Shown in pieces: positions 4,137 through 33,990 of a DNA stretch of 33,990 bases. The number at the start of each line of letters is the position of its first letter. Position 1 is the first letter of the stretch. Source of the DNA: a virus; the IMG/VR virus record IMGVR_UViG_3300021420_000093, positions 1-33,990 of that record, one strand, 5' to 3'. Position numbers and translations under genes: made by a program. A model generated the notes under the pieces. That model was not told the origin of the DNA. It worked only from the letters and a program-made list of their open reading frames with translations, and did not search any database.

Positions 4137-4153
4137 TTACGGGCCTCCTGCGT

Positions 4154-4173
4154 TGAATGTTTCGGAACACTCA
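4154..4173 (-). other. 8-bp hairpin just upstream of the capsid SD, in a 170-base gap
   Basis: Arms TGAATGTT (4154-4161) and AACACTCA (4166-4173) pair with one wobble around a TCGG loop. The hairpin ends six bases from the capsid SD. The remaining gap to 4306 holds no gene I can support and no convincing promoter. A 5' stem here could stabilise a processed capsid message. Confidence 0.4.
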
Positions 4174-4306
4174 GCAGGGCTGCCCGTCAGACGGACCCTA
4201 CCTATCGGATTAACGCACCGACAGGCGGGAAGAACTTCGGTAAGAGATCCCCTCCTAGACTCCCTCTACCGCTCGATGGTTCGCGCATCGAGAACGCAAT
4301 GAATCC

Positions 4307-5091: not shown

Positions 5092-5492
5092 ACTTCGCTG
5101 GTGCTTTTCTCGGCGGTCAGCTTGTCGCCGAGAGCGCGCGCGTCGTAGCGTTCGGCCAGCTCGCGGCGCAGCTCGCCCGGCTCCTTGGCGCCCATAACCT
5201 CATCCTCCGTCGGCTTCTCGCAATCCGCCGGTGGAGACGCCATATCGAAGAGGTCGAGCAAAGCATGGAACCAGACACCGTGGCCCTGCGGCACGGCGTT
5301 GCGCCGCAGCGTCGCTTTCGCGAGCATCGCGGCGATTTCCTCGGTGCGCTTGTTCAGCTTCGGTCCGACGTGCTCCAGCATCGAGGCGATCGCCTTGTGC
5401 CAGTCCTCGGCGGTATTGCCTTCGGAGTTTTCGAGCAAGCGGGCCTTGTTTTTGTTCCACTGCTCGGCGCTGAGGGGCTTACTTTTTGCCAT
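5088..5492 (-). CDS. Hypothetical phage protein, helical
   Basis: This 134-residue, mostly helical, Lys/Glu-rich protein begins MAKSKPLSAEQWNKNKARLLENSEG. Residues about 28-60 (DWHKAIASMLEHVGPKLNKRTEEIAAMLAKA) form a probable long amphipathic helix. It overlaps the downstream gene by four bases and the upstream gene by 14 bases. It lies in the scaffold-to-capsid block and has no recognised family or motif; a capsid assembly accessory is plausible. Confidence 0.6.
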   Translation of the reverse strand: MAKSKPLSAEQWNKNKARLLENSEGNTAEDWHKAIASMLEHVGPKLNKRTEEIAAMLAKATLRRNAVPQGHGVWFHALLDLFDMASPPADCEKPTEDEVMGAKEPGELRRELAERYDARALGDKLTAEKSTSEV

Positions 5493-5679
5493 GATGAAAT
5501 CCTTTGGCTGCCTTCGCTAGGCCAGCCATCTGTCGCATGTGCGGATTGCTGGAGTTGCGCGCCTGCGCCATCTTACCCGCCGGAATCTTCTCGCCTTCGG
5601 GAACGTGCAGGGCGCGATGGAGGCCTCCGGGATTGTGCTTCAGCGCCGCCTTTAGTTTGCCGTAGGCTTGCTCGTTCAT
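5479..5679 (-). CDS. Small basic phage protein (66 residues)
   Basis: The product starts MNEQAYGKLKAALKHNPGG and is rich in Lys, His, Gly and Ala, with a basic tail AKGFHHGKK. The ATG overlaps the stop of the scaffold gene by four bases, so it is probably translated by coupling. The His/Lys-rich composition suits binding to nucleic acid or to an acidic scaffold, but this is a guess from composition. No family recognised. Confidence 0.55.
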   Translation of the reverse strand: MNEQAYGKLKAALKHNPGGLHRALHVPEGEKIPAGKMAQARNSSNPHMRQMAGLAKAAKGFHHGKK

Positions 5680-6545
5680 GCCGCTGCTCCGTTCTGATTG
5701 CTCGGATAAAGCTGCTGATACAGCGCGCGGCGCTTCTCGTTCGCGGCCTTGTGGCCGGGGTGATTCTCGTCGTGGATGGCCTTGTAATCCGGGTTCTCAG
5801 GATTGGTCATCATGTTGTCGAGTTGGGTCTTGATGTCCTTCTGCGCCTGCTCCGGTAGGGTCTGCGCTCCGGTCACTGCGGTATCCTCACCCATCGCTTT
5901 GCCCAGGAAAGCGAAGAGTTTGAGCATGGTGGGGTTCGATCCGTTTTTAGGATCCTCGAAGAACTTGCCGAGCTCCGGGATATCCTCGGCCAGCACTCCA
6001 ACGGCCCGAGTTGCAAGCGCCACATTAGAGTCATAGGCGTGCCCCCACTCCGATTTCAGTTTCCCAACTTCCTGCTCCATCTCCGCATTCATCGCGTCGA
6101 TCGCCTGCTTCTGGGCGCCGACGTACATCGAGACGAGCTCCTTGGCCTGCGCGTCGGTAACACCGTGCGCGTGGAAGGCAGCGCGCGCGGATTTCAGGAA
6201 CTCTTCATTGACCGGGAAGTCCTTACCGAGGGCGGCTTCGGTGATTTCCTTCGCGTTGAAGGTGTACTTGTCGGGGGATTCCGGGCGTCCGAGCTTGGTG
6301 TAGAACTTACCGCGGTCCTCGTCGCTGGCCTCGGGGCCCGGGATCAGGACTGAGCTGCCGAGGCGCTTTTCGAGCGCGACGTGCGAACTCAGGAGGCCGT
6401 TGATGTCCTTATAGGAAGTGAGCGAGGGAAGGGTTTTGTATTCGTCACGAACTCCCTGAACGCTTGCTATCCAAGGTGCCTGTGCTTGTTGCCCACTCTG
6501 GGGGTTCGGGTTCTGACTCCCCGGTGATGGCTGCGGTTCCGGCAT
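5676..6545 (-). CDS. Capsid scaffold / assembly protein
   Basis: This 289-residue protein has a Pro/Gln-rich start, then a segment KLGRPESPDKYTF (about 84-96) and a helical region (NEEFLKSARAAFHAHGVTDAQAKEL). These are recurrent in scaffold-like proteins encoded between portal and capsid genes in phages. The middle is predicted coiled-coil (helix near 140-175), and the tail is basic (EKRRALYQQLYPS), where many scaffolds bind the capsid. A strong SD (GGAGGGGA) precedes the ATG. The first 101 bases overlap the end of the Bbp19-like gene in another frame. Scaffolds leave the head before DNA packaging. Confidence 0.75.
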   Translation of the reverse strand: MPEPQPSPGSQNPNPQSGQQAQAPWIASVQGVRDEYKTLPSLTSYKDINGLLSSHVALEKRLGSSVLIPGPEASDEDRGKFYTKLGRPESPDKYTFNAKEITEAALGKDFPVNEEFLKSARAAFHAHGVTDAQAKELVSMYVGAQKQAIDAMNAEMEQEVGKLKSEWGHAYDSNVALATRAVGVLAEDIPELGKFFEDPKNGSNPTMLKLFAFLGKAMGEDTAVTGAQTLPEQAQKDIKTQLDNMMTNPENPDYKAIHDENHPGHKAANEKRRALYQQLYPSNQNGAAA

Positions 6546-6759
6546 TGGCTCTCCCCTCCACTAAGTCTTCGATATAGAGATACACCGCCCGTTGAGCTGC
6601 GCAAGCAAGCGCGAAATTAGGATCGAGACTCGCGCTGAGTCCGCTGCGCTTAAAGAAGGTAATTTCGATATCGCGGAGCACCTCGCCGCCTTCCGGCGAG
6701 CCGAATACTCGCTGATAGAGACGACGTTTCTCCTCATCGGTGTACTCACGTCGCGGCAC
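6445..6759 (-). CDS. Bbp19-like phage protein
   Basis: This 104-residue protein has the compact pattern YQRVFGSPEGGEVLRDI, then DPNFALACAAQRAVYLYIEDL (about 14-67), which resembles the Bbp19 family from Bordetella phage BPP-1 and relatives, always found beside the portal gene. Its exact role is not established but it is part of the head module. It begins with GTG directly after the portal stop (TAAGTG). The C-terminal 33 residues (TGESEPEPPEWATSTG and onward) are encoded in the overlap with the scaffold gene and look disordered. Confidence 0.7.
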   Translation of the reverse strand: MPRREYTDEEKRRLYQRVFGSPEGGEVLRDIEITFFKRSGLSASLDPNFALACAAQRAVYLYIEDLVEGRANAGTAAITGESEPEPPEWATSTGTLDSKRSGSS

Positions 6760-8487
6760 TTACGCGGCCTGCTGATTACCCGGCTGCTGCTGTTGCTGGT
6801 TCATCTGGTCGAGCGGGCTGCCCGGTTCCGGAGCCTTCCCTGCCGCCTTCAACGCCGGTGCGGCCTGACCCGCCATCTGCGCCTGTTGAGCCGCGGCTTG
6901 TTGCTGCTGCTGCGCGGCCGCCTGCTGCGCCTTGACCTGGCGGACCTTGTCGGTCTGGTCCTTGTCGCGGACGATCTGCGGTGGCGCGCCCAGTTTGCGG
7001 AATACTTGCCGCACCGTCTCGTCGGTATCGATGACTGTCATGGCCTCCGGGTCGCCCTGAAAAATGGGAGCGCAGACGTTGAAGCCGCGCGTGATCGAGT
7101 CCACGTCGCTCGCACGCTGCGCTCTCGCGATCGCCCCATCGTATCGCACTCGCAACTCGACTTTTCCCTGCTGAACGGCATTAAGCAGTTTGGGTGGAAG
7201 CGGCGGGAGTGCATTCGCGCGGCGGCGAATATTGAAGGCTCTGCTGATGAGAGGATGGAGATCCTCTTTTTCCAATCGACCGAGAGTGGGCCCGAGGAGT
7301 TGCTGCATCATCTCGCGACGTGCAGCGGCCTCGGTCGCGGTCATTTGCGGCTGATCCTGCGGGTACTGGAGTTCCGATTCGTGGTAGATCGCGCGGATTT
7401 TGGACTCTAGCTGCTCGGCGGACATCCCGGCTTGGCGGAGGTCGATACCGCTCATGAGAGGACCAATACTGTCGCGAGAGCCTCGCACGTTGGTAACTCC
7501 CCCGGGGGTGAGACGGGCCGGTCCGATGACATCACCATTAACGGCGACAAGGGGCGGGTCGATAATTTTAGGTAGAGCTCGCAATTCCATTTCTCGCAGC
7601 TTGTTAAGTGATCGTATGTCAGGGAGGGCATCATGAGTGGGGCCGCGTCCGTACGTTTCACCTGACGCCTTCGACCACCTCGGGCAGAGGAATGGGAACT
7701 CATCGAATTTGCCCTCCGATAGTTGATATTTCCCGTTGAACAGAATGTAGAAGCTGCGATTCGATCCCTCATGCTCCTTGTCGGGTATCACTCCATGAAT
7801 CACCGACATCTGTTCGTCTTCGCTGCCCTTGGAAACGTTGAGCTTCTCTTCCGGCGTGTCTTTCCACTTCTCAAGGATCGCGGCCTTCGACATGAAGATT
7901 TCGCGGAAATTGACGTTGACCATTCCGTCTGCGCCTTCGCTCCACGCGAACTGTCCCGGCTGCTCGGTCCTGAATCTGAAGCCTTCGAAGATGCCCCGCT
8001 TCTTTTGCGGGATCTCTTCCATGAAGGTGCAGGCGGAGGCGAAGGTGGTGAGGTCGATATAGGCTTCGTTCTGCTCCTGACTGAAGTTGCTGCGATTAAA
8101 ATCGCCGAGCAGAAGATTACCCACATTGTCCAGCCAGATGGCGGTTTGCTGGTCCTGATCCAACTCAGGGTCATCAGTCCCAAGAAAAAACCAACGAACG
8201 TAATCAGACGTGAGGCCAGAGTGGATCGCAGAGGCGAATTTATTTCGCGCGTCAATTGCGGTGGAGTCATAGAGCATGTTGGTGCGTTTGGTTCCCGGAT
8301 AGCGACGCACCAGGATCGAATTCTTCCGAGGTAGGGTGTAGTTCGCGATTTCCTGCCACTCGACCGCCCAGAGACGCTGAGTGATCAGGAGATATTGAAA
8401 GCGGGCAAGTTGCTCGGTTACATCCCGCTGAACTGACGGATCGTCATTCGCCTTGTTACCGCGCGGGAATTTTAAGACTACCGCCAA
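6760..8487 (-). CDS. Portal (head-to-tail connecting) protein
   Basis: This 575-residue protein has the hallmark of the podovirus head-to-tail connecting family: ARFQYLLITQRLWAVEWQEIANYTLPRKNSI at about 28-58, then YDSTAIDARNKFASAIHSGLTS. Twelve copies form the portal vertex through which DNA is packaged. The body includes the KASGETYGRGPTHDALPDIRSLN segment, and a Gln/Ala-rich disordered tail (QQQQQAAAQQ) follows position 515. Start is a TTG with AAGGA directly before it and GGAG 9 bases upstream. Length is typical (about 550-750 residues). It sits five small genes downstream of TerL. Confidence 0.9.
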   Translation of the reverse strand: MAVVLKFPRGNKANDDPSVQRDVTEQLARFQYLLITQRLWAVEWQEIANYTLPRKNSILVRRYPGTKRTNMLYDSTAIDARNKFASAIHSGLTSDYVRWFFLGTDDPELDQDQQTAIWLDNVGNLLLGDFNRSNFSQEQNEAYIDLTTFASACTFMEEIPQKKRGIFEGFRFRTEQPGQFAWSEGADGMVNVNFREIFMSKAAILEKWKDTPEEKLNVSKGSEDEQMSVIHGVIPDKEHEGSNRSFYILFNGKYQLSEGKFDEFPFLCPRWSKASGETYGRGPTHDALPDIRSLNKLREMELRALPKIIDPPLVAVNGDVIGPARLTPGGVTNVRGSRDSIGPLMSGIDLRQAGMSAEQLESKIRAIYHESELQYPQDQPQMTATEAAARREMMQQLLGPTLGRLEKEDLHPLISRAFNIRRRANALPPLPPKLLNAVQQGKVELRVRYDGAIARAQRASDVDSITRGFNVCAPIFQGDPEAMTVIDTDETVRQVFRKLGAPPQIVRDKDQTDKVRQVKAQQAAAQQQQQAAAQQAQMAGQAAPALKAAGKAPEPGSPLDQMNQQQQQPGNQQAA

Positions 8488-8493
8488 TCCTTC

Positions 8494-8748
8494 TCACTCC
8501 AATGTTGCGGTGGAAGCGGCGAGCGGCGCTTCCTTCGGCAGATCAGCGGCACTCTCCTCGCAGGCGAAAGTGATCTGAACGCCCGGCTTCGGCGGAAGCT
8601 TCATCAGATTGTTCTCCTTCTCTGAGACCGCGCGAAGGCAAGTGTCGAGGTCTTTATATGGTCCGTGCTCGGTCGAATCGTGGGCGACCACCCCATTGAG
8701 GCGGATCACGAACCAGAACGCCAGCAGCGCGGGAAGCCAACGTCTCAT
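8494..8748 (-). CDS. Small exported protein (84 residues)
   Basis: The N-terminus MRRWLPALLAFWFVIRLNGVVAHD is a clear signal-like segment: two arginines, a hydrophobic core and a possible cleavage after VVA. The mature part holds two cysteines (in DTCLRAV and TFACEES) that could form a disulphide, and a YKDLDTCLRAV pattern reminiscent of small periplasmic proteins. The ATG overlaps the stop of the preceding gene (ATGA). An exported protein between TerL and portal is unexpected and may act on the host periplasm, for example in lysis or superinfection control; function unknown. Confidence 0.6.
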   Translation of the reverse strand: MRRWLPALLAFWFVIRLNGVVAHDSTEHGPYKDLDTCLRAVSEKENNLMKLPPKPGVQITFACEESAADLPKEAPLAASTATLE

Positions 8749-8990
8749 CGTTTGAGATGCCCGTCCTTCACGCGATCGACGATCTCGTCTTCCATTGGCT
8801 GATGATGGCCGGGAACGTGCGGCGCCAACTCGCCACCGCGCTCCTGCCCAACCCGGTACTCGTCGGGAGTCGAGCGGATGCCGCGCGAATCGCCGCCAGC
8901 GGCCGAACCGTCTTCGCGATGCTGCCCATCCGAGGAGTTGTACTGAGAACCGTCGTTCATCATTCGGGTTCGGATGCCGCGATCTTCCAT
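8745..8990 (-). CDS. Small acidic/polar phage protein
   Basis: The chosen ATG at 8990 lies one base after the stop of the upstream gene and follows GGGGA (spacer about 10), giving an 81-residue product beginning MEDRGIRTRMMNDG. An upstream in-frame ATG at 9044 would add 18 residues but would bury the neighbour's C-terminus. The protein is polar, rich in Gly, Asp, Arg and His, and probably disordered, ending VDRVKDGHLKR. No family recognised. It is part of the run of small coupled genes between TerL and portal. Confidence 0.5.
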   Translation of the reverse strand: MEDRGIRTRMMNDGSQYNSSDGQHREDGSAAGGDSRGIRSTPDEYRVGQERGGELAPHVPGHHQPMEDEIVDRVKDGHLKR

Positions 8991-8991
8991 G

Positions 8992-9156
8992 TTACTTTTT
9001 CCCCGCTCGTTTCCTGACGGACATTTCGCCCATCGCCTTTGCAAATTTGTTGGAGCCTGAGTTTACACGGCCGTAAAAGACTCGCTGGCCTTTCTTGGCG
9101 CCGTACTCGTGCATGAACTTCTTGAGTACTTCGGCGCCGGCTTGGGTCTGCGGCAT
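8992..9156 (-). CDS. Small basic phage protein (54 residues)
   Basis: The start at 9156 (MPQTQAGAEVLKKF) is chosen because it overlaps the upstream stop as ATGA and follows GGGAG. The product is basic, with segments KGQRVFYGRVNSGSNKFAKAM and a tail VRKRAGKK. A RVFYAR.N-like segment followed by a Lys/Arg tail is common in very small phage head-region proteins, but no function is known to me. It may bind DNA. Confidence 0.5.
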   Translation of the reverse strand: MPQTQAGAEVLKKFMHEYGAKKGQRVFYGRVNSGSNKFAKAMGEMSVRKRAGKK

Positions 9157-9368
9157 CAGGAGTTCTCCCACCAAAAGAACGAGCCCAGAGTCGCCATCTG
9201 ATTGCAGAATTCTTTCTCCGAATACATCGGGATGATTCCGACCGGAAGACTCTGCATCGATTTGGGCAAGAGTATGACGTGATCGGGATTCTTGACTGGG
9301 ACTATATCGCCAGGCTTGAGGTCCACGATCCGTGGCGGATTCTCGCCGTCCGCGATTATCGCTTTCAT
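9156..9368 (-). CDS. Small hypothetical phage protein (70 residues)
   Basis: The protein starts MKAIIADGENPPRIVDLKPGDIVPVKNPDHVILLPKS, a pattern that looks like a small all-beta barrel, and ends with an aromatic stretch GSFFWWENS. It overlaps both neighbours by four bases or fewer, so it is co-translated with them. No recognised family and no catalytic residues stand out. Confidence 0.5.
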   Translation of the reverse strand: MKAIIADGENPPRIVDLKPGDIVPVKNPDHVILLPKSMQSLPVGIIPMYSEKEFCNQMATLGSFFWWENS

Positions 9369-9559
9369 TGCCCGGTCAATTTGTTTCCGCTGGTCGGTGG
9401 AGTTCCCGCGCGCTTGCCGCCGGGTCCGGTGAGGACCGCGGCCGCTGCCCCCTGGCGCCGCTGAAGCGCCTGCATCTCGGCATCGAGCGCGGTGTTTTTC
9501 GGCGGAGTCATCGCCGGTGTCTTTGGCAGCTTCGGCGGACTTGCGAATAACGCTGACAT
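9365..9559 (-). CDS. Small phage protein of the TerL-portal interval (64 residues)
   Basis: The Met-Ser start, Pro/Lys-rich beginning (PPKLPKTPAMTPPKN), central RRQGAAAAVLTGPGG and Thr/Gly tail resemble short proteins often encoded next to TerL or portal in podoviruses, whose consensus includes a Lys-Pro-rich start and a (S/T)xLTG motif. Their role is not known. The ATG lies nine bases after the TerL stop and the end overlaps the next gene by four bases. Confidence 0.55.
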   Translation of the reverse strand: MSALFASPPKLPKTPAMTPPKNTALDAEMQALQRRQGAAAAVLTGPGGKRAGTPPTSGNKLTGQ

Positions 9560-9568
9560 CTTACCCCC

Positions 9569-11014
9569 TCAACTGTTAATCGGGTCGAAATCCGTCACAC
9601 TGACCACCGGGCCTCGTTGCGCGATATCATTTTCCAAATCCGCCACAATCGCAAGATAGCGAAACGCGTCCGCACCGTGCGACCACCGATTGTGCACCGG
9701 ATTGGTCTTGTGCACCTCGAGCTTGTCCGAGTACTCCGATCGGTAGTTCTCAAGCGCCTGCAAGCCGCCGTCGCAGTTCTCCACGTCGAATTCGCACCGC
9801 GGTAGAATCGCCCGAGCGGCGTTGATTCCGTCCTGGAAGCCCATCTGCGGAACGATGCGGAAGAAGATGCCCATCCCGCGCGCGATCTCCAGCCGGGTCT
9901 TTCCCGAGCTCAACTCTCGGGCCTGGATGTCGTGCGGGGCCCAATGCCCGGAGTAGACGTAGGGTTTGGATTTGAGAATCCCAATGTAATGTTCCAGCCC
10001 CCGCCCCGAGTTCTCGTAATAGTCAACGCAGCGGATGGAGTTACCCACGTTCTGGAAGAACCAGATGGCAGTGAGGTCCGCAACTCCGAGATCCCACACA
10101 GTCTGGACCAGGAATCGAGGGTCGTATCTAAAAACTCCAATGCGGCCCTCTCGTCTGGCATCTGCGATCTGTCTTCCATAGTAAGCCCCTGCTTTCGCTC
10201 CTACGAATGAACAGAACAACTCCTGCTGAATCCACTCCTCTTCAACTCCGCGCCGGCGCATCGCATCAATCTCTTCCGGCTGGTAGAGTTGCGCGCCGTT
10301 CTCCGGGTACGGATCATATTTCCCGGTCAGGGTGTTGTAACCGAACAGAATCCCGTCCCTCCGCACCGTGTCATTGGTCTGGATCGAGTGAAACCAGCTC
10401 GGGTCATCCTTGGTCGACTCCCACAACCTGGTGAACCAGTCCAAGCCCTGCGGTGTCGTGTTGAAAGTCGCCCACCCGTCATTCGCCACCAGAATGGGTT
10501 CCACGATCCGCCACGGCCTAACCGTCATCAGTGCGCACTCACTGAAGTTGATCCCCACCGGATTCATTCCTCTAAGACGATCCGGCATGTCCGCCCCGGC
10601 GATCCTATATAGGCTCGTGTTCTGCAACTGGACCGTCATCTCAGCCTCGTTCATCGCCCCCTTCCGGTTGTGGCTGAATAAGATGTCCCTCGGGAAATGC
10701 TCCAGATACGCAAACCCCTGAACGAAATTCCCTTCCGGCGTCTTACCCCCCGAGGTCTTCTCATCCCAGATGATCCGGCGCCCCATCGCTAACTCCGGAA
10801 ACAAATGCACGTACGTTCCCACCCTCTCGAACATCCGGGGTATCGTGAAATTCAGGGCACAACTGTCCTTCCCCCCGCGCCGCGGCCAGACGCACATAAA
10901 CCTCCGGATCCCCAACTCCCACGCCTCAAACATCTTCCGCTGGTAACTCCGCGGCCACCAAATGTGCGGTAACTTGCTCCGATTCCGGAACTCGCTGCTC
11001 TCGACCGGATTCAA
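9569..11014 (-). CDS. terL: Terminase large subunit
   Basis: This 481-residue protein is the packaging motor ATPase plus nuclease. Walker A is PRRGGKD (44-50), Walker B is VGINFSE (153-159) with the catalytic Glu, and motif III is near NTTPQG (185-190). The C-terminal RNase H-like nuclease shows WDLGVAD (307-313, first catalytic Asp) and a late SHGADAFRYL segment with another Asp. Length is normal. The start is TTG at 11014, overlapping the stop of a 32-codon ORF (TTGA); the next in-frame Met is residue 28, which would cut close to Walker A. It cleaves and translocates concatemeric DNA through the portal. Confidence 0.92.
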   Translation of the reverse strand: MNPVESSEFRNRSKLPHIWWPRSYQRKMFEAWELGIRRFMCVWPRRGGKDSCALNFTIPRMFERVGTYVHLFPELAMGRRIIWDEKTSGGKTPEGNFVQGFAYLEHFPRDILFSHNRKGAMNEAEMTVQLQNTSLYRIAGADMPDRLRGMNPVGINFSECALMTVRPWRIVEPILVANDGWATFNTTPQGLDWFTRLWESTKDDPSWFHSIQTNDTVRRDGILFGYNTLTGKYDPYPENGAQLYQPEEIDAMRRRGVEEEWIQQELFCSFVGAKAGAYYGRQIADARREGRIGVFRYDPRFLVQTVWDLGVADLTAIWFFQNVGNSIRCVDYYENSGRGLEHYIGILKSKPYVYSGHWAPHDIQARELSSGKTRLEIARGMGIFFRIVPQMGFQDGINAARAILPRCEFDVENCDGGLQALENYRSEYSDKLEVHKTNPVHNRWSHGADAFRYLAIVADLENDIAQRGPVVSVTDFDPINS

Positions 11015-16319: not shown

Positions 16320-17865
16320 TCGGTTGATCCTGGGTTGCGCTAAAAAGTCCGGCGTTTTTCAGCCTGTACTTGAAAGAACGACCAATCTTTCGACGTTCCA
16401 AACGGCCGTCATCGGTGGTTAGGTGGTATAAGCAGTTCTGAACTTCGGGCCTAGGCAGATCGAGGTCTTTCGATATCTGAACGACGCTCAATTCGGTATC
16501 AGATTCTTGGCCCTCGAAAAGCGCCATCACCCGGCCCGCGTACATTTTCCATTTCATCCAGTTTTTGAATGGACCCTTCGAAACCGCCCAACCCTGTTCG
16601 TTCAGCTCGATGCAGGTCTGAGGCAGCGCAAGCCCGCGCGGATCGCGCGTCTGCGTGCTCTCGATCGTGAAGAGATCGTCGCCAAATTTGCGCGTCAGAA
16701 CGATTGGGGAGAATCGCGCTGAGATTCCTTGCGATCCGAGTGCCGCCGTGGCCGCAGTTGCAACGTCGGTCATGTACTTCGGAGAATGATGCGTCGAATG
16801 GACGTGCGCGCGGGTCAGGTCCGCGAGCGTCTGGATTTTGCCGATCGCCTCGCGCGTACCCGCGTAGCTCATCTCGTCGCGGATTCGGGCGAAGTCGAAA
16901 AGCATGTCGAGAATGATGAGAATCGTTCCGTACTTTTGAGCCCCTACAGCGAGCTCGGAGAGCACGCGATCCGGATCCGCCGCCGCGTCCGGACGGATTC
17001 TGACCAGCGCGAGAGGATCGCTGCCTTCACGCCATCCCATCGCGAGGAGCTGCATGCGTGTCGTCGCTACTTCGTCATCTGAGGCAGCGTAAATGACGTG
17101 GCCCTGAGCGGTTTTCCGGCCCCAAATTTCAACGCCGCGCATCACTGACATCGCGAGAGTGCGCGAGTTCGTGGTCTTGCCCTGATGTTTTCCGCCAACG
17201 CCGAGCGATATCGACTGCGTGTAAAATAGGCGCTCGACGATCTCCGAGCGCTGAAGATATTCGGCGTTGGCGACCACTGCGGCGGCGTGATCTTCCCAGA
17301 TGATCACAGACCGATCGTCAGTTGCCGGCTGAAGCTCTCCGCTTGGAAAGTAAGGCGTCAAGGCGCCGCGCGCGATGGTTTGCAGTTCTTCGTCGAGTTC
17401 GGTGCCGTTCAGCACCGGCGGTCGATTGTGCGGCTTCAGAATCTTCGCGCGCAGCGCCTCGACCGCGCTCTCGATCGCAGCATCGAGCGACATCCCGCGC
17501 ACAAATTCTGGTGTCTCTTTCAGCGCGAGCTCGTAATCGTCGCGCACCTGATGGCTCATCCGGTACTTCCAAAGCGTCGGATCCACCGCCGGAAGATGGA
17601 TTTTCCCGTTTCCGTTGCCGTTCGCGTGGCCGTTGGAGTGATATCCGTTAGTTTCGGCCTTGGGCTTCTCGATCGCGGCCTGGATCGCCTCGGTAGCGCA
17701 TCCCGCGCTGCAATGCAGGCTCGGACCATCCTTGCCGAAATCCTTGACGGTCAGGGTGCCCCCGCATCCGGCCGGACAGTCGACGGCGAACTTTTTGCGC
17801 TTACCGCTGGTGTCGAGGACGGCGGAGAGAGAACGCGCGAGGTCAGCGAATTCCATCAGCCGCAC
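16294..17865 (-). CDS. RepA-like replicative ATPase/helicase with N-terminal zinc finger and C-terminal winged helix
   Basis: This 523-residue protein has three parts. Residues 30-56 carry a C-x3-C ... C-x3-C zinc finger (DCPAGCGG, HCSAGC) like primase-type DNA-reading fingers. A Gly/Asn-rich linker follows. Residues about 200-400 form a RecA-like ATPase of the AAA_25/RepA group: Walker A GGKHQGKT (224-231), Walker B LIILD (316-320) and a HSTHHSPK sensor-like motif (357-364). The C-terminal 100 residues (LSVVQISKDLDLPRPEVQNCLYHLTTDDGRLERRK) look like a winged helix. Such proteins load or act as the phage replicative helicase. It neighbours the DnaA-domain gene, strengthening a replication role. 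Confidence 0.78.
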   Translation of the reverse strand: MRLMEFADLARSLSAVLDTSGKRKKFAVDCPAGCGGTLTVKDFGKDGPSLHCSAGCATEAIQAAIEKPKAETNGYHSNGHANGNGNGKIHLPAVDPTLWKYRMSHQVRDDYELALKETPEFVRGMSLDAAIESAVEALRAKILKPHNRPPVLNGTELDEELQTIARGALTPYFPSGELQPATDDRSVIIWEDHAAAVVANAEYLQRSEIVERLFYTQSISLGVGGKHQGKTTNSRTLAMSVMRGVEIWGRKTAQGHVIYAASDDEVATTRMQLLAMGWREGSDPLALVRIRPDAAADPDRVLSELAVGAQKYGTILIILDMLFDFARIRDEMSYAGTREAIGKIQTLADLTRAHVHSTHHSPKYMTDVATAATAALGSQGISARFSPIVLTRKFGDDLFTIESTQTRDPRGLALPQTCIELNEQGWAVSKGPFKNWMKWKMYAGRVMALFEGQESDTELSVVQISKDLDLPRPEVQNCLYHLTTDDGRLERRKIGRSFKYRLKNAGLFSATQDQPNERRNSPD

Positions 17866-18500
17866 CCTTTTCCGATCCTCGATTTATCGTTCGGTAGGGT
17901 AAAATCCTGCCAGCGAATCCATCCGTTCGGGCAGTGAAATCCCCATTCGCGCAGGCGCGGACCAGTCAGGAAAAGTGTAACCGTGGGAGGCGCGCCCGAG
18001 ATGACCTCCAGTCGATGAGCCTGTTTCGCCCTTCGCCAGACGATCGCACCACGGCCGCACCAGCGTCGCGAGTGAACGCCGCCCGCTAGGATTCGATGTT
18101 CGAAATATCCGCCGGATAAAACAATCGAAAGGTTCGTCCAAGGGTGATCATGAAGCGCTCTGTCGTCATCGGAACGATGCACACGATGGACTTTCACGCC
18201 TGCGAGCTTGGATTCAACGACGCGCCAACGCTCAAGATAGAGCGAATGGAGCGAATGGCCATCAGGCTGAATGACATAATCCGGCGGCCTTGAATCAATT
18301 ACCTTCCAAGCCCACCGAAGCAGTCGCGGCACCAGACAAGAAAAAGCCGCCGGAAAGGGGGGCGATCCGGCGGCCACGCGGTCCAATACTGAAGCATCCC
18401 GCGACGGGCTTAATATAGCAGTTGATAGCGTTTGTTCATCGGCATGATGCGGTGAATCGGTTCCCTGTGGAACCGTCCCTTGTAGCGGGTCGGATGCCAT
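17856..18500 (-). CDS. Cupin-like phage protein (start uncertain)
   Basis: The conserved core lies in the last 158 residues: RLLRWAWKVIDSRPPDYVI, then VHRSDDDRALHDHPWTNLSIVLSGGYFEHR and TLFLTGPRLREWGFHCPNGW. The HDHPW with later His residues suits a metal-binding cupin. The family is widespread in phages and its function is unknown. The longest frame starts with ATG at 18500 after a GAGGGGGA SD, but a strong intrinsic terminator (18341-18374) lies inside it. A GTG at 18332 begins just after that terminator and matches the usual family N-terminus. So residues 1-56 may be a translated leader. It overlaps the helicase start by 10 bases. Confidence 0.62.
   Translation of the reverse strand: MASDPLQGTVPQGTDSPHHADEQTLSTAILSPSRDASVLDRVAAGSPPFPAAFSCLVPRLLRWAWKVIDSRPPDYVIQPDGHSLHSLYLERWRVVESKLAGVKVHRVHRSDDDRALHDHPWTNLSIVLSGGYFEHRILAGGVHSRRWCGRGAIVWRRAKQAHRLEVISGAPPTVTLFLTGPRLREWGFHCPNGWIRWQDFTLPNDKSRIGKGCG
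18341..18374 (-). terminator. Intrinsic terminator or attenuator inside the first minus-strand ORF
   Basis: On the minus strand a perfect 8-bp GC stem (GCCGCCGG / CCGGCGGC; plus coordinates 18367-18374 and 18346-18353) is followed immediately by TTTTT (18345-18341). This is the best rho-independent terminator in the window. It lies about 160 bases downstream of the predicted promoter and before the conserved part of the cupin gene, so it is placed as a leader attenuator. Confidence 0.7.
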
Positions 18501-25089: not shown

Positions 25090-25275
25090 ATGGAAACAGA
25101 AGATAGGGTAATGACCGTGAAGGAACTGTCGGTATATCTCAATGTGCATCCCTCGACGATTTATCGAATGCTAAAGCACAACGAGATTCCGGGGTTCAGA
25201 GTCGGATCGGATCACAGGTTCCGCACTTCCACCATCGATAAATGGATGACCGAGCGGGAACACGCGACGAAGTAG
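25090..25275 (+). CDS. Excisionase/HTH_17-type DNA-binding protein
   Basis: The ATG at 25090 directly after GGAGGGGCG gives a 61-residue protein METEDRVMTVKELSVYLNVH, then STIYRMLKHNEIPGFRVGSDHRFR and IDKWMTE. This is a compact MerR-like/excisionase winged helix. No integrase is seen in the window, so it may be a recombination-directionality factor for a gene elsewhere or a simple transcription factor. The gap before it (25043-25089) has only weak promoter-like bases. Confidence 0.75.
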   Translation: METEDRVMTVKELSVYLNVHPSTIYRMLKHNEIPGFRVGSDHRFRTSTIDKWMTEREHATK

Positions 25276-25307
25276 AATTCCGCAACAATTTCAAGGGAGG
25301 GACGCAA

Positions 25308-26177
25308 TTGGATGCGCTGGGGTATGTGGAAGAGGCGCGCGCGGCGTATGGGAAAACTTCAATCCAGAGAAAACTTTACATCGAGGCAGTAACAGTCTGC
25401 GTCGATTACTCCGACTTTCTGGCTCATTCGATTCTCTTCAACAAGCAGGCTTTCGACAGGTGGGTGATCGTCACCGCACCGCATGACGAAGCGACGCGGC
25501 GATTGTGCGAGTATCACGATCTGGAGTTCGTTGTCACTCACGAATTCCATATCAACGGTGGAACTCCTCTCAGCGCGTTATCAGGGAAAGGAAAGATTTA
25601 CGTTCCCCCCTTTTCTAAAGGCCGCGGGATCAATCAGGGGTTGAAGCAGCTCAATAAAACCGGGTGGGTTGTTCATCTCGACGCCGATACGGTTCTTCCT
25701 CCGCGGGCGCGCGACATGTTCGAGATCGCGCAGCTCGACCCGACTTTTCTCTACGGCGTTGATCGATTGATGTGCAAGAGCTTCGAAGACTGGTATCGAC
25801 ATCTCGTCTTCCCCGAACTCCAGCACGAGCCGAATTTCTGGATCAGGGGTAACAGCTTTCCGCTCAACGTGAGAATTGGTCCCCACCGGGATAATGGATG
25901 GTTACCGCCAGGGTTTTTTCAGATGTGGAATCCGCTGGGCTCGAACAAATCCGAGTACCCGAACGACCATTCCACGAACGCCGGTCGCAGTGACGTTAAC
26001 TTCGCGTTTTCTTTCCCGCGCGAGAAGCGCGCCTTGATACCGGAAATCTTCGCTATCCATCTCGAAAGCGAAGAGGTTCACATGGGAGCGAATTGGACGG
26101 GTCGCAGGACTCGCTTTTTCGGGCCGCAAGGAATGGAGCGTCATATCGTTCAACATCCGCGAAAGGAATGGCTTTAA
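25308..26177 (+). CDS. Phage GT-A-like glycosyltransferase
   Basis: The start is TTG 25308 after GGGAGGG; an upstream ATG overlaps the excisionase gene. The 289-residue product has an N-terminal GT-A-like pattern: VTVCVDYSDFLAHS (28-41), FDRWVIVTAPHDEATRRLCEYHDLEFVVT (49-77), KGRGINQGLKQL, then WVVHLDADTVLPP with the DAD metal/nucleotide-sugar motif (125-127). Later residues include HRDNGWLPPGFFQMW and DVNFAFSF. Such enzymes are common in phages and may modify DNA, virion or host surface. It is not in a sugar-biosynthesis cluster. Confidence 0.72.
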   Translation: MDALGYVEEARAAYGKTSIQRKLYIEAVTVCVDYSDFLAHSILFNKQAFDRWVIVTAPHDEATRRLCEYHDLEFVVTHEFHINGGTPLSALSGKGKIYVPPFSKGRGINQGLKQLNKTGWVVHLDADTVLPPRARDMFEIAQLDPTFLYGVDRLMCKSFEDWYRHLVFPELQHEPNFWIRGNSFPLNVRIGPHRDNGWLPPGFFQMWNPLGSNKSEYPNDHSTNAGRSDVNFAFSFPREKRALIPEIFAIHLESEEVHMGANWTGRRTRFFGPQGMERHIVQHPRKEWL

Positions 26178-26935: not shown

Positions 26936-27232
26936 ATGAAACTTCTATCGATTCTCGCGCTGGCGCTCGCGCTCTCCGGCTGCTCTACCATCAAGCTCAA
27001 CTGTCCGTCGGATCATGTCGTTACCGCGAATCTGAATGGACCGAACATCGCCACGGTGGCAGCTCAACTGGCCGCTATCATCGGACCTTTAACCGCAACT
27101 TCGCTGGCGATGAAGAACGGGGCAGTGCTGACACCTACGACCACAACGAATGACGGCACCTTGGCTGTCAACACGCTGGATATCGTGGGCACTCAGTCCT
27201 ATAGCTGCGGGAACGCTGCGGCGACCAAGTAG
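26936..27232 (+). CDS. Phage-encoded lipoprotein
   Basis: This 98-residue protein begins MKLLSILALALALSGCSTIK, a clear lipoprotein signal with lipobox LSGC (cysteine 16). The mature protein is Thr/Ala-rich and compact with two further cysteines. Phage lipoproteins commonly mediate superinfection exclusion or are Rz1-like spanins. This one is not Pro-rich as Rz1 usually is, so exclusion or envelope binding is as likely. GGGGG lies about 15 bases upstream. Confidence 0.68.
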   Translation: MKLLSILALALALSGCSTIKLNCPSDHVVTANLNGPNIATVAAQLAAIIGPLTATSLAMKNGAVLTPTTTTNDGTLAVNTLDIVGTQSYSCGNAAATK

Positions 27233-29268: not shown

Positions 29269-29439
29269 CTAGGGACCGGGATTGCGGTTATTTACCGCGC
29301 TGATCCCGTTCCCCACCGCGACGGTTCCCGAGATAAGCATCGCAGCCTCGGTCGCGGTTATCCGGCCGAGGCACAGCGCGGTAAAGACACCGATCGCGGC
29401 AATGCAGGGAATCAGCTTGAGCGGATCTCCGAAAGTCAT
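29269..29439 (-). CDS. Small membrane protein, holin-like (56 residues)
   Basis: The ATG at 29439 overlaps the upstream stop as ATGA, with GAGGAAG as SD. The frame reads MTFGDPLKLIPCIAAIGVFT, then ALCLGRITATEAAMLISGTV and a short polar tail: two likely membrane segments joined by a short basic turn. Size and topology fit a small class II holin, but no holin family is recognised. It ends the late operon two bases from the convergent early operon. Confidence 0.5.
   Translation of the reverse strand: MTFGDPLKLIPCIAAIGVFTALCLGRITATEAAMLISGTVAVGNGISAVNNRNPGP
29278..29308. other. Inverted repeat at the convergent gene ends
   Basis: GGGAT ... ATCCC encloses a GCGGT-TATTT-ACCGC hairpin, giving nested arms near 29278-29308. 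It lies at the 3' end of the small membrane protein gene where the two operons converge. No clear T-tract follows on either strand, so terminator function is weak. Confidence 0.35.
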
Positions 29440-29786
29440 TTGCTTCCTCTAACCGGCAGTCTATCCAAGATAGCGTCTAGTCTGTTCACGTTCGCAACGT
29501 GCCGGTTTTCCTGAAGTTGCGTCATTGTCTCCAAGCGACCGTCGATACGTTCCGCAAGATTGCGCATATCCTCGCGGGTGCGCCCTTCGATGCCTGAGAC
29601 CTGAGTTGACATTTGCTCGAACTGTTGAGCGTCGGATTCGGTATGGGTACGCAACTCCGCGCCGCTCGCCTTATCCCAGATCAGCTTAACGAGGATGGCC
29701 CATGCCCCGGCGAATACTCCCATAAACAAGCCCATGACCTTCCAGAAGGAATCCCAGGTAACTACGTCTTGGCTGTTGACTACCAC
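29436..29786 (-). CDS. Membrane-anchored coiled-coil protein (116 residues)
   Basis: The N-terminus has a hydrophobic helix (FWKVMGLFMGVFAGAWAILVKLIWD, about 14-38) followed by a long coiled coil with heptads (EQMSTQVSGIEGRTREDMRNLAERIDGRLETM). This layout is like XhlA/haemolysin-type or spanin-like lysis accessories, or small tail-associated membrane proteins. It overlaps the holin-like gene. A lysis role is inferred from topology and position only. Confidence 0.55.
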   Translation of the reverse strand: MVVNSQDVVTWDSFWKVMGLFMGVFAGAWAILVKLIWDKASGAELRTHTESDAQQFEQMSTQVSGIEGRTREDMRNLAERIDGRLETMTQLQENRHVANVNRLDAILDRLPVRGSK

Positions 29787-29814: not shown

Positions 29815-31464
29815 TTAAAACGCTCCGGTATGGAACGCTATCGACCACGGCACCGGCGCCGAAAGCCCGGTGTTGTTCTGGACCTTAATCGAATTACCTG
29901 ATGCCCAATAGACGTTGATGTCGCTGGCCGTGTTCACGGTATCCGAGCAGGTGTACGAGTTGCCGGCGAAATTATAGGGCGTGTATGTCGTGCCCGACGT
30001 TCCGTTGAATGCTGCGCTGAAGGGAACCCGGCAAAGCGTGCTGCCCCCGACCTCGACATCGACATACCCGGCGTAGTTATAAGAGCCGGTGGTCAGCGGA
30101 AAGATGGTCGTCGAGCTCGGTGCGATATTCCCATACCCGGCATAGATGGCGTCAGGGACATCGGGGATCGCGAAGGGGATCGTTCCGGTGTTGACGCTCA
30201 AACCGCTCACGGTTGCGGGGCCAACACCGATGGTTCCACTCTGCGAGATGCAGAGGTTCGAACCTGTGCCATTGTTGAACACCCAGGCGCCGGCGCCACC
30301 ACCGATGCAGGAACCCGCACTGACCTGACAATCGTTGCACCAGGCCATCGTGGGCGGCTTCTGCATCATGCACTCGGGCGGAGTAGGCGGCTGATTGCCG
30401 ACTCCGCACGCGGTTCCGAGGTACGCGAAGAAAGTCCCGGTCGAGGAATAGCTGAAGGCGTTTTCCTTGAGCTGGGAGCCGCTGCCGGGGATCGGAGTCG
30501 GGACGATCGAGCCTACCGGCGTCGGAGTTGCGGTCTGCGTCACGGTCGCCGTAGCGGTCGCGGTTGCGGTTGCCGTCGGGGTAGCGGTAGCCGGGACTGC
30601 GGTTGGTGTCGCGGTTGCGGTAGGAGTCGCCGTAGCGGTTGCAGTCGCCGTGGCGGTCGGCGTTGCGGTAGCAGTGGCCGTGGGAGTAGGAGTCGCGGCC
30701 GACACGTCGATGATGGATTCCTGCGCGTTCCAGCAATCGTTGGAGGTCGCGGTCCAACCTACGGCCGTCGCGTTCGCTGCGTTCTGATCAAGGTACGCTG
30801 TGAAGAGACTCGGGCCGGTCGCATAGTTGCCGAGAGTGGTAAAGCTATTCGTCGGTCCTGATACGCGCGCATTTCCGGTCCAAAGTCCCGCGTTGCCGAG
30901 CAACCAGTTATTCGCCTGGCTCGGAGTCGCGGAGTTGCTCAAGGGGCTCGCCGAGTTGGTCCCTTCTGCGTTTGCGGGTTGCGTGACGTCGACCACGGCG
31001 TTTCCTACCCCGGTGAACTCATCCGCGCGTGCGTAGAAATTGCAGGTTCCCGCAACTCCGGTGGACATGTGCAGCGTGATGACAGTCGCTCCGAGAGGAT
31101 GGTTGAGCGAGGTCCATTGCGCACTGGTGAGGTAGGCCGTACCGGGACAGCCGGAGTTGCAAACGTTGCCGGGAGGGTCGTTCCAGGTCGCGGAGCCCTG
31201 ATTGTTGTCGGTAACGGCCGCGATGTTTGCGCAGTTGAGTCCTTCCTGACCCGATAGGTTGACTGTGATCTGCCCTGTGTTCGCCGCGCCGGTACCCTGC
31301 ACGGTGAGCGACGGGAGCACCACGTTGATGTTGCATACCGCGGTAGCAGTCGCGACCGAGTTACCGGCGGTCTGGGAGTCGGTGCGCGGGCTAGTGAGGA
31401 CGATGACGAACGCCGCGAGGAGGAAGATCGCGATCACCAATCGGAGATGCTTATGTAGCTTCAA
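29815..31464 (-). CDS. Secreted Thr/Pro-rich, mucin-like phage protein
   Basis: This 549-residue protein starts at TTG 31464 (TTGA overlap, GGAGG upstream) with [23 protein letters not shown], a signal or anchor. Residues 30-250 form a Gly/Asn/Thr-rich beta region with a cysteine pair near 101-105. Residues about 253-325 are almost pure Thr/Pro/Ala ([11 protein letters not shown] repeats). A second beta domain with many cysteines (CMMQKPPTMAWCNDC, SCIGGG) closes it. The Thr-rich linker resembles a heavily O-glycosylated stalk. It lies downstream of the tail-fibre adaptor, so it may be an extended tail or surface filament, yet it carries an export signal. Function not established. Confidence 0.62.
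   Translation of the reverse strand: MKLHKHLRLVIAIFLLAAFVIVLTSPRTDSQTAGNSVATATAVCNINVVLPSLTVQGTGAANTGQITVNLSGQEGLNCANIAAVTDNNQGSATWNDPPGNVCNSGCPGTAYLTSAQWTSLNHPLGATVITLHMSTGVAGTCNFYARADEFTGVGNAVVDVTQPANAEGTNSASPLSNSATPSQANNWLLGNAGLWTGNARVSGPTNSFTTLGNYATGPSLFTAYLDQNAANATAVGWTATSNDCWNAQESIIDVSAATPTPTATATATPTATATATATATPTATATPTAVPATATPTATATATATATVTQTATPTPVGSIVPTPIPGSGSQLKENAFSYSSTGTFFAYLGTACGVGNQPPTPPECMMQKPPTMAWCNDCQVSAGSCIGGGAGAWVFNNGTGSNLCISQSGTIGVGPATVSGLSVNTGTIPFAIPDVPDAIYAGYGNIAPSSTTIFPLTTGSYNYAGYVDVEVGGSTLCRVPFSAAFNGTSGTTYTPYNFAGNSYTCSDTVNTASDINVYWASGNSIKVQNNTGLSAPVPWSIAFHTGAF
30515..30700 (-). repeat. Thr/Pro/Ala-coding low-complexity tract 1
   Basis: Degenerate tandem repeats encode TPTATATA-type units in the 549-residue secreted protein. 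The plus strand is a GTnGCnGT-like ladder, which also creates a spurious Val/Ala open frame on that strand. Confidence 0.7.
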
Positions 31465-32324
31465 TTTCCGAGTCCTCCACCTTGGGTGAGGTTGCTGCGC
31501 AGTCCGGGAGATTTGTTGCCACCGAGCGCGGCGCTCCCGCCGATTATTGGATTAGGCGTCGGGGTTGCTGTCGGCGTCGGTGTGGCCGTGGGTGTTGGAG
31601 TTGGGGTAGCGGTAGCCGTTGGCGTTGGAGTAGCCGTCGCTGTGGGAGTTGGTGTCGCTGTGGCCGTCGCAGCACCGTTAATCGCGAGATTTTCGTTACA
31701 GTAATTATTCTGCGCGGCCTGACCGAATGAAGGTGTAGAGCCAGCGGCCGGGGCTATATCCCATGCTTGCAGCGGGAAATTACCGCTGTTGGTTAAATTG
31801 GCCCGCTCATTCCACGTGCCCGATGCGCTGAAACTATTAAACCCGCCGCCTCCATTCCCGCATTCATCTACCTGAAGATCGTTGCTCCCGCTGACGGTTA
31901 TCGCTCCGGCCTGACAGGGTGTCGCGTTATTCTGCGCATTAAGATTGTGCGCTTCGATCGGCGACGATTGATTGTCGCCGGTGTAATCGAGCATCACTTG
32001 TCCCTCGGTGTTCGGAGAGCCGCCGAGGGTATAGCTGGCGCCCTCGCTGGCGGCGACTTTGTAATATGTCGCGCAAGTCGAGGTTCCGCTGTTCGGTGAG
32101 CCACGATCGAGCTTGGTCCAGCCGGTCGCCGGTGGATCATTGACGCTGCCATTCGTATAGAAATACCAAAGCAGCACGTCGCCGTTGGCCGTGCCGGTCG
32201 GCTTGTTGATACTCGAGGTGTTCGAAGTGGTCGAAGCAACAAACGTCTGCGGCATAGCTTGCGACCACAGCATCGCGATCAGCGCAATCGCAGCGACGGC
32301 GCTGGTGAATGACCGGCGTTTCAT
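31461..32324 (-). CDS. Secreted protein with Thr/Pro repeat near the C-terminus
   Basis: This 287-residue protein starts [26 protein letters not shown], a signal peptide with a probable cut after Ala. The body (about 30-215) is a beta-rich domain with Ser/Thr/Asn and three or more cysteines ([36 protein letters not shown]). Residues about 218-262 are [10 protein letters not shown] repeats, then [13 protein letters not shown] and a short Gly tail. The [25 protein letters not shown]... layout resembles bacterial secreted adhesion-like domains. The ATG overlaps the previous stop (ATGA) after GGAGGGGGG. Confidence 0.62.
31545..31675 (-). repeat. Thr/Pro/Ala-coding low-complexity tract 2
   Basis: Imperfect repeats encode [14 protein letters not shown] units near the C-terminus of the 287-residue secreted protein. 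Repeat units match those of tract 1 in style but not exactly, suggesting shared selection or recombination between them. Confidence 0.65.
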
Positions 32325-32626
32325 CTAAGCCCCCCTCCGTTCCCCATCGGTTCCGAACCCCCGACCCGCTTCATGATGTAGACGTAGATCGGCGTCATGG
32401 TGGCCGTTGGCGTGGGCTGCGGTGTCCGCGTCGCAGTTGGAGTCGGAGTCGCCGTTCTCGTAGGAGTGGCGGTTCTTGTCGAGGTCGGGGTTGGCGTTGG
32501 AGTTCTCGTCATTGTGGGGGTCGCCGTCATTGTGGGGGTCGCCGTCATTGTGGGCGTCCGCGTCGGCGTCGGCGACTTCGGCGCCGCAACCGAGAGTTGC
32601 GCGAGCAGTATGAGTCCCGCGAGCAT
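32321..32626 (-). CDS. Short Thr/Pro/Arg repeat protein
   Basis: The 101-residue product opens with a hydrophobic stretch ([17 protein letters not shown]), then about 63 residues of [18 protein letters not shown] repeats, and ends [23 protein letters not shown]. It has a signal-like start and looks like a stalk piece rather than an enzyme. ATG directly follows the previous stop after GGAGATG. The underlying DNA contains exact 18-base tandem repeats (32508-32561), so copy number may vary. Confidence 0.5.
32395..32578 (-). repeat. Thr/Pro/Arg-coding tract with 18-bp exact repeats
   Basis: Includes two exact 18-base units GTCATTGTGGGGGTCGCC (32508-32525, 32526-32543) and a third slightly changed copy (32544-32561). 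Each unit encodes one TPTMTA-type hexapeptide on the minus strand, so unit gain or loss keeps the frame. Confidence 0.7.
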
Positions 32627-33031
32627 TCATCTCCAGGTCGAATACGCATTGCAGGCCGTCGATCCGGTCGAGAGCACGCATCCCCACGCCAGATTGAGCG
32701 TTGAAGGTGACGACGGATTCCCATCAACGCCGGTGTCCGGTTTGCATTGCCCGGCCGGGATCTCCTCCCAATTCGCGGGTGCCGTGCTGGGGATCGTCCC
32801 AGAGTAATCACCGCAGACCAGCGGATTCGCGCAAGTTGATTGAGCACAGACCCGATAAGTCCCTCGCACCGCAGTCGGCATCACCGATACCGGGGTCGAG
32901 GAGCTGGTCACCGAAGTTACCAGCCGTCCGTAGCTGGTGCCCTGCACATAGGGCGTGGCGGCCGCCATCGCGATCGCGCGCAGCGCCACGACCACCGCGA
33001 CGACTACAAAGAGTGTTGAGAATTTGCGCAT
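32627..33031 (-). CDS. Secreted Cys-rich protein
   Basis: This 134-residue protein begins MRKFSTLFVVVAVVVALRAIAMAAATPYV, a clear signal peptide. The mature part has five cysteines (VCAQSTCANPLVCG, QCKPDTG, WGCVLSTGSTAC) that could form disulphides in a small beta domain. The SD is a weak AGGAG-like run near 33035. It lies between the tail-fibre adaptor and the Thr/Pro proteins, so the four proteins likely form one functional set. No known family. Confidence 0.58.
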   Translation of the reverse strand: MRKFSTLFVVVAVVVALRAIAMAAATPYVQGTSYGRLVTSVTSSSTPVSVMPTAVRGTYRVCAQSTCANPLVCGDYSGTIPSTAPANWEEIPAGQCKPDTGVDGNPSSPSTLNLAWGCVLSTGSTACNAYSTWR

Positions 33032-33040
33032 CTTACGCTC

Positions 33041-33607
33041 CTAGAAAGAAATGTCGGCGATGATGTTCCATATCGCTGGAGTACTTCCCACTGCCGCAGT
33101 TGTGCAAACGTAGCCCCACGGTCCACCGGGAACCGGCGGGCAGACCGTGAACCAGTCGCATACGTTCCCGGTCGCCGGCGGGCCGGGAAGCTCCCCGAGA
33201 TAGTTCCCTTGATTTTGACTGAGCTCCTGAACGATGCAGGTCAGACGATCAAGTCCGTGCTCGAGCGAGGTTGCCGGAAACGGATCGTCATCGATATAGC
33301 TTTGCGGCTGAATGCGCGGGGTGAAGCGTCCGATCAGGATCGCCGCACCAATCGCCGGCGACGCTGGATTGCCGTTCTGATCCACGATGATGAGCGTCCC
33401 GCCGGTCGGGTAGGCGCCCCATTCGTCTTGTATCCCGGTCCAGGTGTAGCCGGGCTGCGCGTTGAGCTGGAAGATGGTCGAGATCCCGCTGACGGTGACA
33501 AAGACCTGCAGATCGGCCGCATCGAGCAGGTAATTCGGATAGACGAAAGCTGGGGTGTGCCCGTCGCCGACGTAGTTGATGATGACGCCTGTGGTTTCGA
33601 CGCTCAT
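33041..33607 (-). CDS. Tail-fibre N-terminal adaptor protein (T7 gp17-type)
   Basis: This 188-residue protein has the T7-fibre adaptor pattern: VIINYVGDGHTPAFVYPNYLLDAADLQVFVTV (7-38), GYTWTG, GGTLIIVDQNG, IGRFTPRIQPQSYIDDDPFPATSLEHGLDRLTCIVQELSQN (about 93-133). In relatives this domain anchors a fibre or spike to the tail. Here it ends after about 55 more residues (WNIIADISF) with no receptor-binding or trimer domain, so the receptor part must be on another protein. The ATG overlaps the upstream stop. Confidence 0.8.
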   Translation of the reverse strand: MSVETTGVIINYVGDGHTPAFVYPNYLLDAADLQVFVTVSGISTIFQLNAQPGYTWTGIQDEWGAYPTGGTLIIVDQNGNPASPAIGAAILIGRFTPRIQPQSYIDDDPFPATSLEHGLDRLTCIVQELSQNQGNYLGELPGPPATGNVCDWFTVCPPVPGGPWGYVCTTAAVGSTPAIWNIIADISF

Positions 33608-33990
33608 GGACCCTCCATGCCCGAGGAGTCGAACGCGGGTCCGGGCGTCGCCCGCATCATTCGCTGCATGATCTTCCGGTTCTTCACGTCGCCGACGATC
33701 TCTGGATGCTCCGCGAGGAGTTGCTTGCGCGCGCTGTTCTGATACGCGGTAAACAATCGGTTGAGTACCTTTGCGCGTTCCGGGTCGGAAGCCTCATTCC
33801 ACTTCGGATCGTTCATCGCGGTCTTGACCGCATCCTTGAGGTTCATGTCATTGGCTGGATTCTTCACGGTTCCGCGAAGCTCGGCCCATCGATCCTGGAG
33901 CTGAGGAGACAGGTTCACACCGTCCTTGTAATTCGGGACCGCGATCGGGTTCTCGGGGTCAGCCGGTCCGCCCATCGCTTGAGGGACTTT
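33604..33990 (-). CDS. Partial CDS: C-terminal end of a larger virion protein
   Basis: The frame is open to the window edge: the codons before the first Met (33975) read KVPQA without a stop. The visible 128 residues are charged and helical (DRWAELRGTVKNP, EASDPERAKVLNRLFTAYQNSARKQLLAEHPE) and end RMMRATPGPAFDSSGMEGP. In podoviruses the gene before the fibre is usually the last large internal/ejection virion protein, so this is likely its C-terminus. The start and most of the gene are outside the window. Confidence 0.55.
   Translation of the reverse strand, partial: KVPQAMGGPADPENPIAVPNYKDGVNLSPQLQDRWAELRGTVKNPANDMNLKDAVKTAMNDPKWNEASDPERAKVLNRLFTAYQNSARKQLLAEHPEIVGDVKNRKIMQRMMRATPGPAFDSSGMEGP

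Follow-up and report, generated by a model that had tools for sequence, protein, structure and literature searches.

Why should a phage encode, directly behind the adaptor of its tail, a row of proteins that look destined for export? The tail fibres of double-stranded DNA phages are assumed to be produced and attached in the cytoplasm, and the question is raised by four consecutive open reading frames (ORFs) of the IMG/VR virus record IMGVR_UViG_3300021420_000093, analyzed here over its whole length of 33,990 bases (hereafter the window). This incomplete contig is, judging from its sequence, a fragment of an uncultured podovirus-like genome. Its four ORFs, hereafter the cassette, each named after the lowest coordinate of its gene (32627, 32321, 31461 and 29815; Table 1), rather probably encode host-recognition proteins (fibre, adhesin or depolymerase subunits) that would be exported by the Sec pathway. 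This proposal draws on: (i) the layout and translational coupling of the genes, (ii) their signal-like N-termini, (iii) their tracts, (iv) their conservation in relatives and (v) the tail-fibre homology of similar proteins from other phages.

All four ORFs are present on the minus strand directly after the adaptor (33041-33607), in the order internal virion protein, adaptor, 32627, 32321, 31461, 29815 and holin/spanin-like genes 29436 and 29269; the adaptor and these presumed lysis genes have only the cassette between them. The internal virion protein gene and the adaptor gene overlap by ATGA, 32627 ends with a TGA immediately followed by the ATG of 32321, and 32321/31461 and 31461/29815 overlap by ATGA and TTGA, respectively. 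Each start has a purine-rich ribosome-binding site (Shine-Dalgarno-like GGAG or GGAGG) or a stop/start overlap; that of 29815 is a TTG preceded by GGAGG about 9 nucleotides upstream. The run from the internal virion protein to the presumed lysis genes looks like one translationally coupled late operon. At 32626-32629 (minus strand), only a lone TGA, then ATG, separates 32627 from 32321, which share a reading frame; this would fit either a coupled gene pair or a single gene broken by a stop codon.

The neighbourhood of a tail adaptor, pointed out in the initial annotation, was confirmed by a PHROG match. The tblastn matches of the adaptor are putative tail fibres of Pelagibacter phages; it shares 40-41% identity with the short adaptors of two relatives (G001 and L082, see below), and its homologue in G001 aligns with the epsilon15 tailspike N-terminus. 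The adaptor ORF stops about 60 residues past the docking domain, with no fibre shaft or tip fused to it. By these alignments, it is the virion-docking N-domain of T7/epsilon15-type tail fibres, standing without a fibre. The window thus has the same N-terminal domain in the same place after the internal virion protein as T7 gp17 and epsilon15 tailspike fibres, but the domain stands by itself, and the outer parts are encoded as separate, signal-bearing proteins, whereas the fused fibres examined have no signals.

Export signals were sought with a home-made, rule-based scorer (requiring a positively charged n-region, a hydrophobic core free of charges and small residues at -3 and -1), whose threshold of 5.5 was chosen on inspection, after examples had been seen; it was applied to mechanical ORF calls, with internal starts allowed and background ORFs included. 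It passes 29815, 31461 and 32627 (the N-terminus of the latter is MRKFSTLFVVVAVVVALRAIAMAAA followed by TP) and rejects 32321, whose n-region has no charge. Therefore, the claim that all four proteins carry export signals stands for three of them, whose N-termini are firm as Sec-type sequences, and is weakened for 32321, whose start is weakly signal-like. The N-terminus of 29815 may be a signal anchor rather than a cleaved signal. Over the cassettes of the window and of the two relatives, which were found via the head protein and the adaptor and not via signals, 10 of 11 proteins score as exported compared to four of 80 other ORFs (Fisher p = 2e-9). The hydrophobic N-termini could also be packing or docking elements of fibres assembled in the cytoplasm, as the tail fibres of well-studied phages are, and the long hydrophobic stretch in 29815 would suit such a role. 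However, the N-termini resemble each other only in charge, hydrophobicity and AXA-like ends and have no common sequence, some bacterial proteins sharing a module with 29815 (see below) also start with signals, and most cassette proteins are rich in cysteines (14 in 29815, four in 31461, none in 32321 and six in 32627), so that this explanation is very improbable.

The search with the head protein retrieved 58 loci, of which the nearest is G001, a near-complete genome of 43.8 kb with 52% identity in this protein. Behind its short adaptor come four proteins, each of which scores as exported: (i) one that is partly pectin-lyase-like (PHROG E 2e-14), (ii) a large protein whose signal start is internal to the listed ORF, (iii) one whose collagen-like tract matches PHROG tail fibres and (iv) a short protein. 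In L082, reached via the G001 adaptor, the short adaptor precedes three signal-bearing proteins with Thr-rich stalks; genes for holin-like and lysozyme-like proteins come next. All seven proteins that follow the adaptors of these two relatives score as exported, compared to three of 127 ORFs in 13 loci where the docking domain is fused to a long fibre, in line with the earlier remark that export signals are unusual on virion proteins. Signals and stalks both recur in relatives; the lack of conservation that would have spoken against them is found for neither. An adaptor of 305 amino acids in MW202898 is followed by a single signal-bearing, fibre-like protein of 917 amino acids annotated “caprin-2 domain”. 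The exact layout of the cassette is shared by only two relatives: scans of IMG/VR with the window's 29815 and adaptor proteins found nothing, and further queries (the adaptor of G001, the internal virion protein of the relatives and an alignment of adaptors) retrieved G001 and L082 alone. A Thr-tract match in another genome (G012) was rejected as low complexity.

The three Thr/Pro tracts announced by the initial annotation were also recovered. The maximum of Thr plus Pro per 40 residues is 26 in 29815, 31 in 31461 and 29 in 32321, and at most 13 in all other ORFs of the window. Shuffling gives maxima of 21, 20 and 29, respectively; it is no test for 32321, which is Thr/Pro-rich throughout. All four synonymous codons of each of Thr, Pro and Ala are in use in the tracts, and their tandem DNA copies are mostly 66-85% alike, with the exception of an 18-base array in 32321 (97%). 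The mixed codons and the diverged copies indicate selection on the protein and not DNA slippage alone, and they rule out plain DNA microsatellites.

Signals and mucin-like tracts, together with a GT-C-like and a GT-A-like protein (GT, glycosyltransferase) encoded in the window, had been taken as hints of a system building O-glycosylated stalks on the virion or on the host. Surface stalks on the infected cell, O-glycosylated or not, could alter the envelope or exclude other phages. The GT-C-like protein (869-1972, minus strand; about five predicted membrane spans) lies between the head genes and a tail tubular-like gene, and the GT-A-like one (25242-26177, plus strand) has an “LDADT” motif. Both were recognised by eye; neither assignment was confirmed by Pfam, PHROGs or PDB sequence searches (the PDB match of the second is at chance level only), and the AlphaFold single-sequence model of 869-1972 is too poor for a structure search (mean pLDDT 41). 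No counterpart of either protein was detectable in 17 related records, an empty result that is weak evidence alone, and G001 has no ORF of at least 90 amino acids with two or more predicted membrane spans. Since G001 keeps the exported cassette without GT-like genes, and since the collagen-like tract that replaces the Thr tract there needs no Thr, the O-glycosylation system is unsupported. The C-termini without visible anchor and the late-operon position also argue against surface stalks, which appear improbable. The tracts could nevertheless be glycosylated by host enzymes.

Behind its tract, 29815 carries a module with four cysteines and a C(S/N)DC motif (Cys4), 43% identical to the start of the first cassette protein of G001 (BLASTP E 5e-8) and, in an alignment, similar to the end of the first cassette protein of L082. 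A clearer version forms the C-terminus of a signal-bearing protein of 1253 amino acids from MW202444 and retrieved 19 viral loci when used as query. Among the phage proteins with this module, 12 of the 14 that could be evaluated score as exported, compared to 10 of 98 other ORFs (p = 1e-8). Of the two exceptions, L100 has an internal ATG with a plausible signal-like start. Among the carriers that score, L099 unites signal, Thr-rich stretch and Cys4 module. The module is rare in bacterial genomes: scanning about 85,000 species gave five records, and in the phylum to which the Acidiferrum record belongs, 14 of 297 sampled genomes have it. Its bacterial carriers, from Acidobacteriota and others, are beta-helix-like where recognisable, and some start with signals. 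The copies of Nitrospira moscoviensis (L109) and of a Myxococcales metagenome-assembled genome (L110) adjoin apparent exopolysaccharide-synthesis genes, named by eye; the L110 protein is pectate-lyase-like. The module is C-terminal in most proteins, in the middle of 29815 and N-terminal, directly behind the signal, in G001, and a C-terminal sorting tag was rejected on these positions. From its sequence context, the Cys4 module appears to be part of extracellular proteins that face polysaccharides, in bacteria as well as in phages; a role in adhesion or folding is a guess.

These beta-helix-like relatives, two of them beside exopolysaccharide-like genes, also speak for the main alternative, in which the cassette proteins would be free depolymerases or adhesins, exported or released by lysis, that act on exopolysaccharide by cutting or binding it and do not become part of the virion. 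A neighbouring gene in G001 is of the same tenor, its product resembling glycoside hydrolase family 42 (GH42). Pantoea stewartii WceF, a Tat-exported, exopolysaccharide-linked enzyme with a tailspike fold (PMC7949094), offers a further parallel: like the window's proteins as we read them, it is exported, but it is bacterial and takes the Tat route, and the likeness is one of features. Free secretion is possible but less likely: the cassette lies directly behind a virion adaptor with coupled translation, free secretion would leave this adaptor partnerless in the window, and BcepC6B gp19, a signal-bearing protein from a cultured phage, shares homology at its tip with the ends of usual phage fibres.

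This last protein and its counterpart PBR31 orf35 show that signals on fibre-like proteins occur beyond the cassette. The window's own four proteins match only PHROG families without known function, mainly over the tracts, and have no informative family match, so their link to tail fibres comes through proteins of other phages. The Burkholderia phage protein gp19 (annotated as tail fibre) and the Xanthomonas phage protein orf35 (putative structural protein) have signal starts and match PHROG tail fibres (E 2e-14 and 1e-15, respectively), although the score of orf35 (5.48) is just under the threshold. The last 140 residues of gp19 are 38-43% identical to the fibre ends of KpV74 and Peat1, which have a normal N-terminus without signal, and the pectin-lyase-like region of G001 also has a match in the signal-less BcepMigl gp27; the same modules therefore exist with and without export signals. 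Between gp19 and orf35, 11 of the first 20 residues are identical, compared to 25 of 30 at positions 21-50, as expected of a maintained signal of which only the hydrophobic character is kept. Like the window's cassette, both proteins combine a signal start with a position between a tail protein and a holin; unlike it, they follow a full-length fibre or spike and have neither Thr/Pro stalk nor Cys4 module. A signal-bearing protein of 1068 amino acids on an 85-kb contig (L091) also matches PHROG tail fibres (E 2e-12); signal-bearing ORFs form a run around it (3184-10730). In the passages searched, the PBR31 paper mentions a signal peptide for gp40 alone, which it compares with tail-associated hydrolases (PMC10975493). 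MAT fibres of Bdellovibrio are mosaic proteins resembling phage fibres, and they have signal peptides and adhesive tips (PMC10769870); they are bacterial and displayed on the surface of the predator, and they resemble the cassette by features. No description of signal-bearing tail fibres was found in the literature, an absence that is weak evidence as subscription papers were outside the search.

Returning to Sec-exported host-recognition proteins, the usual fused tail fibre would be split: the adaptor would keep the virion-docking domain and the outer parts would become separate proteins. These would pass the Sec pathway and fold beyond the cytoplasm, where cysteines can form disulphides, the Thr/Pro or collagen-like tracts serving as extended spacers between globular domains. 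Either docked on the adaptor at lysis or as released factors, they would then meet the next host at its surface. Export itself, extracellular folding and docking are what we infer from the observations above. The more specific scheme in which the virion is finished outside the cytoplasm, with Sec-exported fibres oxidised and assembled in the periplasm or the medium and docking at lysis on a pre-installed adaptor, is unlikely but worth stating. Several points weigh against exported host-recognition proteins. No precedent was found for a Sec-exported protein reaching a cytoplasmically assembled tail, nor did the literature consulted yield proteomic data for any of these phages. The signals rest on a simple home-made rule and not on SignalP. 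The end of the G001 cassette holds two signal-less proteins (L074:4570-5103 and 3728-4567), possibly the real virion fibres. Finally, BcepC6B encodes a fused fibre, gp18, followed by gp19, and a split adaptor is therefore not required for a signal-bearing fibre.

The recurrence of signal-bearing fibre-like proteins, two cultured phages included, would mean that some phages mount recognition proteins once these are exported, or else that fibre modules commonly serve as secreted factors. The two alternatives are testable with BcepC6B or PBR31, and either outcome alters the search for receptor-binding proteins in metagenomic phages, where signal-bearing proteins are likely set aside as host-like. 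If assembly occurs outside the cytoplasm, the recognition apparatus could be shared among particles after release.

Table 1. Coordinates of the cassette, of its parts and of other features of the window.
Feature	Coordinates	Strand	Basis
Tail protein	126-869	minus	PHROG match
Major head protein	3174-4136	minus	PHROG match
Head-tail adaptor/portal	6760-8487	minus	PHROG match
Terminase	9569-11014	minus	PHROG match
Holin-like small hydrophobic protein	29269-29439	minus	position and sequence only
Holin/spanin-like membrane-anchored coiled-coil-like protein, start of presumed lysis genes	29436-29786	minus	position and sequence only
Exported protein 4 (29815), 549 aa (amino acids): predicted signal or signal anchor, N-domain, Thr/Ala/Pro tract, Cys4 module, C-terminal domain	29815-31464	minus	
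Cys4 C(S/N)DC module of 29815, residues 328-406	30247-30483	minus	BLASTP and alignment
Thr/Ala/Pro tract of 29815, residues 258-316	30517-30693	minus	
Exported protein 3 (31461), 287 aa: predicted Sec signal, N-terminal globular domain, Thr/Pro/Ala tract, Gly-rich tail	31461-32324	minus	
Thr/Pro/Ala tract of 31461	31554-31670	minus	
Protein 2 (32321), 101 aa, nearly all Thr/Pro tract; weak signal-like start	32321-32626	minus	ORF and rule-based scorer
Thr/Pro tract of 32321, residues 18-79	32390-32575	minus	
Exported protein 1 (32627), 134 aa, six Cys, strong predicted Sec signal	32627-33031	minus	ORF and rule-based scorer
Short tail adaptor, 188 aa	33041-33607	minus	PHROG tail E 3e-12
C-terminal end of large internal virion protein	33604-33990	minus	ORF open at contig end; assigned by position, not alignment

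At the position of the internal virion protein, the relatives encode proteins of 1367 and 1692 amino acids (45% mutual identity over the compared part). The stretch missing from the window genome probably holds the remaining tail and internal virion genes. Searches with the cassette proteins themselves gave little: 31461 has a weak tblastn match to a protein of Maribacter phage Panino (29%, E 8e-3), its tract has weak similarity to segments of solved structures listed as AaBgIC and scaffoldin, no cultured phage was matched when 29815 and two cassette proteins of L082 were used as tblastn queries, and the single-sequence AlphaFold model of 29815 (mean pLDDT 38) is too poor for a structure search.

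Outside the cassette, an additional signal-like N-terminus is carried by a Cys-containing protein of 160 amino acids in the head-gene region (2119-2601, minus strand). The product of 17856-18500 (minus strand), which adjoins replication-type genes, belongs to the PHROG “cysteine dioxygenase” family (E 2e-45). A papain-like-looking protein without Pfam match follows the lysis genes of L082 (12960-13784), and small lipoprotein-like proteins, alike by look, are encoded in the window (26936-27232, plus strand) and in L082 (14162-14494).

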